From Nymphaea colorata (Eukaryota > Streptophyta > Magnoliopsida > Nymphaeales > Nymphaeaceae), in assembly GCF_008831285.2 (NCBI RefSeq), contig NC_045150.1, positions 7,948,001-8,012,000 of the forward strand: 64,000 nucleotides of DNA, given 5' to 3'. The position numbers were made by a program, and so were the translations under genes. Within the stretch, counting starts at the first letter, position 1, and every line of letters begins with the position of its first letter. Under the pieces are notes generated by a model. It was not told the origin of the DNA and ran no database searches. It worked only from the letters and a program-made list of their open reading frames with translations. Positions 18,354 to 51,397 of this stretch are shown piece after piece.

Positions 18354-21300
18354 CTAGTTGCTGCCATAAACCCATTTTTCAGCATTACTGGTATAACTGA
18401 CAAGTTCCTCCGGCTTGAACCAAAGGCTGATCTCATCCTTCGCAGTTTCAGGACCATCGCTTCCATGAATGATGTTCCTGCAAACCAACATATTACGTAA
18501 TTAGAAAGCTTCAAGATATACAAAAAGAAACCATTAGATAACAAACACTAATTTGTGTGTTCTTCATGTCCTTGGATTTACAGGAACACCAGCACAACAG
18601 AATCAAAATTTATCTAGTTTACAGGATTTGATTATGATTTACAGATGAAGGCATCATTTAGATTATATAGTCGACTTTCATCTACCTAGGATCATCGACT
18701 GCCATACTGTTTAGAGAAATGACGATTTCCAACCAGAGTTGTCATTTAAGGAGTGCACTGTACTAGAAGCCGCAGCTTGTAGACCATAGATCGACATTCA
18801 GAAAGGTAGAAGTCCGGAGTAAGGTACTAGTATCTATGCTATTGTTAGGTGTCAGTTTGCACAGCAGTTGAACAACGAGCCACTCCCACCACCTCAACCC
18901 CTTCTGCCCAGGGAATTGTGGTCTATTAACTACTAACAGTAGAAGCCGCAGCTTGTAGACCATAGATCGACATTCAGAAAGGTAAAAGTCCGGAGTAACG
19001 TACTAGTATCTATGCTATTCCTAGGTGTCAGTTTGCAGTTTGCACAGCAGTTGAACAATGACCCACTCCCACCACGTCAATCCCTTCTGCACAGGGAATT
19101 GTGGTCCATTAACTACTTGATTCCGCTTCCTTCCTCCACCAGTAGACAGTATAGTTGGGAAATACCATGCCAACTCTACCCCAAAAGCAACCTCACCCTT
19201 TCACCACCTATACATCGACCCTTCTCTCCGAAGAGAATCCTGGTAAAAATTGCAAAGGGACGCCAAAAAACTGAGCAATGCAATTTCCCCAAGTCCTACT
19301 GTTAACCAAGCAGCCATTATTAGTAAGTAGAAATTCTCATCAGTTTTAAAACATACCGTCCAACCACAACTGCAAGGTCTCCTCTAATCGTTCCAGGCTC
19401 TGATTTCTGGGGATCAGTAGCTCCAATAAGCTTCCGGCCATACTTTATCACTCCTTCCCCTTCCCAAACCTGCAGGAGCAAAGGAGCAGATATTTTGAAA
19501 TATGAAGACAAGACCCCTCCCCAAGAATCTGAAAAATATATAGGCAGTCGCACAAATACAATTTCCAAGTTAAAGAGGAACAATAGACAATATGTCTGAT
19601 GGATAACAAAGGAAACATACAATGTAAAAACAAATTCCCATTAAATGGCGAAAGCAATAATTGTAAGAAACAACTGTAGTAGCTACTTCACAGGGGCAAG
19701 GAACAAACATGACAAAAATATCCGGATAAAAATTTGGCTACAATAAAAAAGGAACATTTTTAATGCTTTACCACTCTCATCATAACATAAGCAGTCAAAA
19801 ATAAGATACGATACACCACATGTATCGTACAGTTATGATACAAGCACCATATCGTACGATACAGTTACGATACGCTAATTTTTACTGATTTTTTCAGAAT
19901 TTTTTCTGATTAATTTCTGTTTTTTTTAAATACGATATAATTAAGATACATTACGATACAGCGTATCTTAAAGCCAGACCGATACGGCATACGATAAGCT
20001 TTTTACAACATTCAGCAATACACTAATACTACAGCTAAAGCCTAACCAGGAAAACAGACTCAAGTTTTTGTGACTAACCATCGCAAGAACAGGACCAGAG
20101 CTGAGAAAATTGCATAGGCCATTAAAGAAAGGCCTCTCCTTGAGATCATGGTAGTGTTTTTCAGCAAAGTCCTTTGTCGGAATCACCAGCTTAATGGCCA
20201 CAAGCTTGTATCCTTTGCGTTCGAAACGATCAATAATTTCTGCAACCTAAATAAACAAAACATGGATTACCATAGAATATTTAAAACAAGGATCAGATAG
20301 ACTAAATCAGAAGCTGTCTGCATTTTATCCTAACCACAGCATTTAATAGACAATAACAAGTTCAATGAATATTTCACCTCTTAAACTGTATTAGAAAATA
20401 CTTTACCCCTTAACCAGCATACTACTTTTTTATTGTCAATTGCATCTTCAAAGGCATCAAACTACTGACTGCCACTATTGGCATCTTGATCATTCAAGTT
20501 GGAATATCAAGTCTTAATCTTGTAGTACTGCATCCCTACATTCATGTTGGTTACACTCAATATATAGTGTAATTTCAAGAAGCTTTAAAGGTTATTTTTT
20601 GGACACTGACATATTTCCAAGAGGAAATAAACAAGCCTATACAAAGCATAGATTCATTTGGAATGTACATTAAACATTTCAGTTTCACTTTACTGCTAGC
20701 CATTATACAAGGAACAACAGGATTTTCACGAACTTGTAGAACTAAAAACAATAAAACATCTTCTACCAACTAACTACTAATTTCTCATCTTCACTCTGCA
20801 TGAAAATATTAAGACCTTCAACTGCGACAACCTGCACAGAACCTTCTGAAATTGTAAATATTAAGAACTAACAAAGCTTTTCCCTACATTTTAACATAGC
20901 AAACTAAAAGGCATCATCGACAGTTGCAAAAAGCATATGTAGAATGAACTAGGAAAAAGTTCAATTTTCCTTTTTCTTCATGAAAGAACCCCCCCCCCCC
21001 CCCCCCCCCCAAAAAAAAAAAAAAAGGAACACCGCTAGATCAGTAACTCCATCTAACAAGAAGCCATAGAATAACCTTCAAAAAAGGAAAACCAGGTAAA
21101 AGTTTCCTTTGAGGTCCCTTATAACAAAATAATCTGGATATTTGTGAACCATGGAAAATCAAATTTGGTTCCCAGATGGCTTGACGAAATCTGAAGACAA
21201 ACTACTGAAATTGGTAAACCACATTCCCAATGAAAAATCTAAAAAATATGGAAACCATAGAAGTGCATGCAAACTAAACAAAGAATTCAGAAGGAAGCAT

Positions 21301-50600: not shown

Positions 50601-51397
50601 AGGACAAGCGAAAAATGGTTGCAAATTTAAGAATCTAAATGAATGTTTACACCTTAAGGGGCGTTTGATATATCAAGAATCATAGAGTTTTAAAATCAAA
50701 ATGCTCATTTTTCAAGAAATTGCTAACTCGACGAATTCTCTTCTCCGATCATCTCACTGATGTTGCCAACAATGATTCAAAGGCTTTCTATGGAAAAGAA
50801 AGGATGCTCATTGAATGTTTTTTTTATCGTTGTTTATACTGGCAAGACGCAGCCAGATAATGTCTGTTGGGCTGTACAGCATAGATGAAGAGGCAATTTC
50901 TTTCTTCTTCTTTTTTTAACTTCCATCAGTCTATTTCATGAAGAAAAGGCTACAAAACCTGCCGCAGGAAGAACTAGAGCTCCAGAAAGCCATCCACTCA
51001 AGGTACTCCTGGCTTCTTTCTGCTGATAAACTGAAGCCAGTGTAGACATCTTTCCTCTAAAAGAAGCAGCAGATGCCGCTGCCACTGTCCGCCCTTCTGC
51101 AAATTAGAAATAATATAACAGCAATTTAAGCATGTCAACAATGGGGGAAGCCAGAAATAGGGCAGAAGGTGCAAAACAGCACAGTTTCGTCAGAAAGACC
51201 GACGGGAAAAACACACGCGCTCACGTTTGATCAAGATCGAATAAAATAATCAAAAGGCCACAGGCTTCAGAGGTTTGTAGATCGAAATCGTCCGAAAGAG
51301 CAGGCAGAAACTCACGGGAGAAGAGAACCGAGTTCCGGGAGGCGGGAAGGAGCGTTCTAGCGCTCCTTGAAGCGGCTCTGCATATCTGGGAACTCAT
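44699..51397 (-). CDS. NDPK3-like copy 3, open but with altered active site
   Basis: Seven exons join in phase: 51316-51397, 50959-51096, 49132-49169, 48995-49045, 47126-47296, 46519-46631 and 44699-44804 (699 nt, 232 residues plus stop), all GT-AG. The presequence ([17 protein letters not shown]) and hydrophobic segment match copy 1. The kinase part keeps Lys95 ([10 protein letters not shown]), Asn199 and His202 (NVIHGSS). It has lost other nucleotide contacts: Tyr135 is Cys, with [11 protein letters not shown] replaced by [12 protein letters not shown]; Arg171 is Gln and Thr177 is Asn (SQKLIGNND); Arg188 is Val (GTIVGD). An in-frame stop after SNTEN removes the conserved C-terminal Trp-Val-Tyr segment; the ancestral stop lies 24 nt further. 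It is either a pseudoenzyme or a gene early in decay. No frameshift or broken splice site is visible. Confidence 0.75.
45387..45552. mobile_element. PIF/Harbinger-type MITE, 166 bp, in copy 3
   Basis: TTA | GGAGTTGTTCGGC ... GTCAAACGATTCC | TTA. Same family as 43334 and 46334, more diverged at the ends. A fragment of it remains at 30930-30959 in unit A. Confidence 0.8.
45864..45924. repeat. (AT)n microsatellite in the last intron of copy 3
   Basis: About 60 bases of AT repeat. A shorter run stands at the aligned place in copy 2 (31217-31238), so the locus existed before the duplication and changed in length since. Confidence 0.95.
46334..46497. mobile_element. PIF/Harbinger-type MITE, 164 bp, inserted beside exon 6 of copy 3
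   Basis: TTA | GGGGCTGTTTGGTCACGTTA ... GCCAAACGACCCC | TTA, lying 21 bases beyond the 5' splice site of exon 6. Copy 2 lacks it at the aligned place (AACTTTCATCGATCTTCAAAC), so this member moved after units A and B separated. Confidence 0.85.
47938..48150. repeat. Two direct copies of a GGGCTGGCATGGG-type repeat fragment
   Basis: AGCCAACGTGGGGCTGGCAT at 47951 and AGCCAGCGTTGGGCTGGCGT at 48112 are related blocks about 160 bp apart. A complementary block lies at 17897-17960, sharing CTGGCTCC...GCTATAAGCAGTTGAGTTT. They look like pieces of one dispersed repeat family. Confidence 0.55.

Follow-up and report, generated by a model that had tools for sequence, protein, structure and literature searches.

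Within the window, by which is meant the whole analysed stretch of 64,000 nucleotides of Nymphaea colorata, three NDPK3 genes of seven exons each lie head to tail on the minus strand, as seen by exon-by-exon comparison across the window. Beyond these three loci the same comparison gave only short and weak matches in the window, and a tblastn search with c1 as the query found no further NDPK3 copy in the 9.5 kb on either side of it. Copy c1 (24420-18354, minus strand) is an intact NDPK3 gene of 237 amino acids, with its exons at 24420-24339, 22913-22776, 21517-21480, 21395-21345, 20246-20079, 19469-19357 and 18477-18354. Copy c2 (36580-30312, minus strand), with exons at 36580-36499, 36309-36172, 34984-34947, 34860-34810, 32714-32538, 31787-31732 and 30378-30312, is an open copy of 202 amino acids without the catalytic histidine. 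Copy c3 (51397-44699, minus strand), with exons at 51397-51316, 51096-50959, 49169-49132, 49045-48995, 47296-47126, 46631-46519 and 44804-44699, is an open copy of 232 amino acids with an altered nucleotide site. Exons 1 to 4 are of 82, 138, 38 and 51 bp in all three copies, and exons 5, 6 and 7 are of 168, 113 and 124 bp in c1, 177, 56 and 67 bp in c2, and 171, 113 and 106 bp in c3. In the gene models all 18 introns run from GT to AG, with 36 of 36 splice dinucleotides kept, and the frames are open over 237, 202 (uninterrupted) and 232 codons, respectively. The sequence-only reading of this DNA, which had described three NDPK3 genes of identical seven-exon structure head to tail on one strand between 18354 and 51397, is borne out by the gene models, as is its description of c1 as intact at 237 amino acids.

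It had also been argued from aligned introns and flanks that the copies are genomic duplications. For the introns this is correct: all six are present and alignable in each copy, so the copies are not retrocopies and a processed pseudogene is ruled out. For the flanks it is correct only in part. Clear alignment on the kilobase scale is found for the c2-c3 pair only, where the unit bearing c2 (28054..37122) aligns with that bearing c3 (41597..52036), whereas around c1 clear alignment ends about 190 bp before the ATG (a weak one with c3 reaching 230 bp) and, in the comparison with c3, about 250 bp downstream. Farther downstream (+60 to +2000), c1 and c3 give a weak signal (score 197, the highest of 60 shuffles being 174), and an 80-bp downstream match is at 76.5%; this extra signal may be eroded flank homology. 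Several local repeats are noted here. Diverged tandem repeats of about 127-137 bp lie just upstream of the promoters of c2 and c3 (36723-37122 and 51564-52036), with no match among those listed upstream of c1. Intron 6 of c1 holds a local tandem duplication (18764-18934 and 18940-19117, 90%), to which a single segment corresponds in each of c2 and c3. Related segments at 45383-45536, 46327-46504 and 43327-43499, occurring in both orientations, resemble a small inverted-repeat transposon, one of them beginning some 15 bp past the end of c3 exon 6, and intron 4 of c2 has a long polypyrimidine tract with periods of 22-36 bp (33159-33548).

The three products match the Pfam NDK family (PF00334, cut-off 27 bits) with 183.6 bits in c1 (E = 2e-54), 71.6 in c2 (7.5e-20) and 147.7 in c3 (2.3e-43), and c1 is identical to the mitochondrial NDPK chain of pea (PDB 1W7W) at 131 of 151 residues. 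With this plant type III NDPK the copies have in common a presequence, a hydrophobic stretch and the NDK domain. The available part of PMC13120501 gives a GDN motif at the C-terminal end of type III NDPKs; c1 carries GSN there, and c2 and c3 are without this end. At columns conserved at 95% or more among 39 reference NDKs (36 NDK loci, pea and two human chains), the consensus is kept at 45 of 45 in c1, 37 of 45 in c3 and 26 of 45 in c2. In a tree of nine sequences, drawn with a midpoint root for display only and with the NDK genes C7 and C378 left out, pea and the three copies group apart from the other NDPKs of the same genome (support 100/99), c1 joins c2 and c3 with 81/83, and c2 and c3 are sisters with 100/97, the branches being 0.0065 for c1, 0.23 for the c2/c3 stem, 0.53 for c2 and 0.18 for c3. 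One exon-wise Pfam search of the genome (407.8 Mb, 783 contigs), in which only the best candidates were scored, placed the window at C13:7948001-8012000 and gave 15 NDK matches at E ≤0.001, among them exons of the three window genes. Two other NDK genes have the type I start MEQTF (C4 and C12), C11 presumably resembles type II, and C7 is distant. Two further ones lie on small contigs that could be contaminants, C768 with a single open frame of 155 codons and C378 with a distant NDK that has a single TAG in its frame; the latter contig may use a variant code. Since the remaining matches are type I- or II-like, distant or possibly foreign, c1 is the sole intact NDPK3 among the best candidates of this search.

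We take H118 to be the phospho-accepting residue and K12, Y52, F60, R88, T94, R105 and N115 to be nucleotide contacts. All of these are present in c1. F60, R88, T94, R105 and H118 are gone from c2, and c3 has lost Y52, F60, R88, T94, R105, D121 and the last six residues, with K12, N115 and H118 retained. Part of the damage is common to both copies. At the Arg105 site both read ATT-GTT-GGA versus ATT-AGA-GGA in c1, a replacement of Arg by Val through a change of three nucleotides (31758..31760 in c2 and 46545..46547 in c3, minus strand), and in both the Phe60 loop is remodelled and one codon longer. D121 is altered in both, each having an Asp one position later; R88 and T94 are deleted in c2, and c3 has other residues there. 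Private to c2 are the losses of His118, its codon now being GAC for Asp (30366..30368, minus strand), of Gly119 and Glu129, of the C-terminal 19 residues and of 19 codons in exon 6; this exon (31732..31787, minus strand) is 57 bp shorter than in c1 and c3, the loss including R88 and T94 and keeping the frame. The losses of c3 on its own branch are Tyr52 and the last six residues, removed by a TAG at the position of a Trp codon (44699..44701, minus strand). The losses that had been read from the sequence, namely the phospho-accepting histidine, 19 codons and the C-terminus in c2 and several nucleotide contacts in an open c3 of 232 amino acids, are thus all found in the alignment. Judged by the residues lost, c2 cannot be a normal NDP kinase, and both c2 and c3 are likely pseudoenzymes.

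Since R105V and the Phe60 loop with its extra codon are shared, the damage to the nucleotide site is, on this comparison, older than the separation of c2 and c3. An NDPK3 gene was first duplicated in tandem. One daughter, c1, has remained almost unchanged and still encodes the enzyme; in the other, parts of the nucleotide site were lost, and a unit of roughly 9-10 kb was then duplicated again to give c2 and c3. The non-coding DNA of c2 and c3 differs at 745 of 5059 aligned columns (about 15%), the difference to c1 being larger, and at synonymous sites of the NDK exons c2 and c3 are 0.21 apart, and either of them 0.41-0.43 from c1. The available part of PMC7015852 places a duplication peak of N. 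colorata at KS of about 0.9, near a split dated to 147-185 Ma; scaling to this peak, which is our own calculation and not a figure of that source, would very roughly give 34-42 million years for c2/c3 and 67-89 million years for c1 versus both. By contrast, it was proposed in the sequence-only reading that the copies stand at three stages of decay. One live and two catalytically damaged copies are indeed present, but the damage common to c2 and c3 precedes their split, and a linear series of decay is ruled out by the shared R105V together with the sister relation of c2 and c3. Nor is it established that c2 is dead, as had been held, with 202 codons open and a loss from exon 6 of exactly 57 bp. 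The better description is one live gene and a two-member lineage in which the nucleotide site was lost once and the frames have stayed open since.

If c2 and c3 were ordinary duplicated pseudogenes, they would be unconstrained, and their open frames would be owed to luck and to a period of selection before a recent relaxation. It is noted that up to the stops all net length changes in the exons are multiples of three. Among the indels between c2 and c3 in non-coding DNA, 57 of 75 outside low-complexity sequence and 30 of 31 inside it are not multiples of three, and the former rate predicts some 7 indels that shift the frame of the coding sequence. In c2 and c3 there are no uncompensated frameshifts and no splice losses, the stops lie only near the 3' end (costing c3 six and c2 19 residues), and the alignments permit compensated +/-1 pairs in exon 4 of c2, in exon 5 on the stem and in exon 6 of c3. 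The frame and all splice sites have thus been kept through about 0.16-0.21 substitutions per neutral site. The tail of exon 7 behind the TAG stop of c2 (30257..30314, minus strand, stop included), where the frame cannot matter, serves as an internal control; it has lost 5 bp in one place, gained 3 bp in another and contains further stops. In simulations of neutral decay, with base composition and transition bias assumed, six settings were run, and in none of them did a single replicate out of 4,000 keep all features. When indels were simulated explicitly, in four settings with 5,000 replicates for each copy, joint products of 7.2e-5, 3.4e-6 and 1.9e-6 were obtained, and of 4.5e-4 at the slowest rate tried, these small P values being post hoc because the window was chosen for its open-looking copies. 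Neutral decay at non-coding rates would rarely leave both copies with frame and splice sites.

The front of the genes has been kept as well. Each copy has a presequence of 86 amino acids ahead of the NDK domain, with 9, 12 and 9 Arg and Lys and 2, 2 and 1 Asp and Glu among the first 62 residues in c1, c2 and c3, respectively, and its positive charge and hydrophobic 15-mer are kept in all three. About 100-130 bp upstream of each ATG, TATAAATA is aligned in the three copies. Exons 1-2 differ between c2 and c3 at 15 of 220 positions versus 136 of 780 in intron 1 and 600 bp upstream (p=4e-5). Exons 1-3 are slower than non-coding DNA in c3 (6/258, p=0.009), and those of c2 alone are not significantly so (11/258, p=0.31). 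Intron 1 is not slow (p-distance between c2 and c3 of 0.175 over 189 columns), and the short intron 3 is (0.058 over 86 columns). In all three pairs of copies the presequence exons show less synonymous divergence than the NDK exons, by a factor of 1.8 to 3.0; for exons 1-3 versus the NDK exons, dS is 0.114 versus 0.206 between c2 and c3 (p=0.24) and 0.138 versus 0.410 between c1 and c3 (p=0.003). With shared branch lengths, omega differs by region (p=2e-5); a model that gives exons 1-3 a lower overall rate fits better (p=0.004), and with it the difference in omega is removed (p=0.48), so that amino-acid constraint as the sole cause of the slow exons is not established. The slowness may come from selection on the targeting peptide, from RNA or splicing signals, or from exon-specific conversion.

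The NDK domain behaves differently. In the codon-based dN/dS check that had been proposed, the omega shared by c2 and c3 is 1.33 overall and 1.60 in the NDK domain, neither distinguishable from 1; no purifying selection on the NDK domain at the amino-acid level is thus detectable after the split (likelihood ratio 2.06 for the value of 1.60). In separate fits, the values of c3 are higher and poorly determined. Polarised by c1, non-coding changes number 96 of 1587 in c2 and 100 of 1587 in c3, in columns filtered for good alignment, which lowers the non-coding rate; in exons 4-7, c3 has changed at this filtered rate (21/342) and c2 faster (46/342). The changes private to c2 are random with respect to conservation in the family (25 changed, p=0.73), and no significant avoidance of conserved sites is seen in those private to c3 (10 changed, p=0.19) or on the stem (10 changed, p=0.23). 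Conserved sites are avoided by the differences between c1 and c3 (42 changed, p=0.04), which mix the time before and after the damage, and, as a control, by those between c1 and pea (19 changed, p=0.025).

An NDK-domain omega of about 1 or higher, a pace of change no lower than that of non-coding DNA, the randomness of the c2 changes and the C-terminal truncations in both copies are all as would be expected of pseudogenes, and chance survival of the open frames is a serious rival. However, neutral evolution since the split would be unlikely to leave frame and splice sites intact in both copies, exons 1-2 are slower than the adjacent non-coding DNA, and, with damage older than the split, the relaxation cannot all be recent. 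We therefore regard ordinary pseudogenes as possible but somewhat disfavoured.

The excess of changes in c2 might instead point to neofunctionalisation, above all of c2, with exons 4-7 evolving faster than neutral under positive selection. The 46/342 of c2 exceed the 96/1587 of filtered non-coding DNA (p=1e-5), the c2:c3 ratio of changes is 46:21 in exons 4-7 versus 96:100 in non-coding DNA (p=0.007), c2 and c3 differ at 78 of 345 positions in these exons versus 745 of 5059 in non-coding DNA (p=2e-4), and with shared branch lengths an NDK omega of 2.14 is better than an omega of 1 (log-likelihood −1692.0 versus −1695.9). However, the better-fitting regional-rate model (p=0.004) gives an omega of 1.47, with −1687.7 versus −1688.6, and a fit of the NDK domain alone does not place omega above 1. 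Moreover, the filter keeps the slower non-coding blocks, and compared with introns 1 and 6 (265/1448) the excess in exons 4-7 has p=0.08; part of the excess in c2 comes from changes clustered where exon 4 ends, which may be compensated indels; and with E129W, H118D and both the 19 codons and the tail missing, it is doubtful that the c2 domain folds. We consider this explanation quite improbable. That one gene was assembled repeatedly or mis-joined is hardly credible, since c2 and c3 diverge by about 15% in their non-coding DNA and are farther still from c1, with private indels and microsatellites, and since all three copies lie on one 18.0-Mb contig; assembly duplication is ruled out by this divergence.

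Based on the sequence comparisons above, we give an even chance to the reading that c2 and c3 are a pseudoenzyme lineage, either retained and perhaps put to a new use or only recently relaxed; whether the lineage is in use is a near-even call. Both copies have kept the promoter core with its TATA, the start codon, the splice sites, the charged presequence with its hydrophobic stretch and the open frame, and their NDK domains have drifted. It is thus envisaged that c2 and c3 are putatively expressed as pseudoenzymes, now or until recently, and that their products would be sent to the compartment of NDPK3, the predicted import being into the mitochondrial intermembrane space and/or the thylakoid lumen. 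In that compartment a non-catalytic role, such as that of a partner or decoy of c1 hexamers, is conceivable for c3 and less so for c2, and selection would mainly favour the making of an in-frame, correctly targeted product. A more specific form of this, in which translated organelle-targeted pseudo-NDPKs are held by selection in frame and targeting exons with the formerly catalytic domain free to change, seems to us unlikely; if true, it would invert the usual pattern, a scaffold of signal and frame being kept and new sequence explored behind it.

It is common that tandem duplicates lose catalysis. Here the shared loss can be placed before the second duplication and both daughters are open, which makes the locus a clean natural test of the retention of a dead-enzyme gene, and c2 and c3, if expressed, would stand beside a plant organelle NDP kinase as its catalytically dead relatives. 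At the level of titles and the beginnings of abstracts, no comparable plant case was found in the literature. As far as the accessible part of PMC13120501 goes, coffee, tobacco and Solanaceae have lineage-specific NDPK3 duplicates, which are alike in having arisen within a lineage, and the catalytic site is described as conserved among plant NDPK types, whereas here it is lost in two of three copies. The animal group II NME proteins such as NME10/RP2, given in the available part of PMC2777172 as without NDPK activity, are likewise retained relatives with an NDK domain and without the catalytic residues; they are, however, multi-domain or highly divergent, whereas c2 and c3 are tandem daughters of an organelle-type gene with putative expression.

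Finally, we note that elsewhere in the window Pfam gave nothing above cut-off in 15 other open frames and a scan of viral contigs gave no relative. An open frame of 172 codons at 3798-4316 (plus strand), with no Pfam match, has an end that presumably resembles plant XRI1-type proteins.
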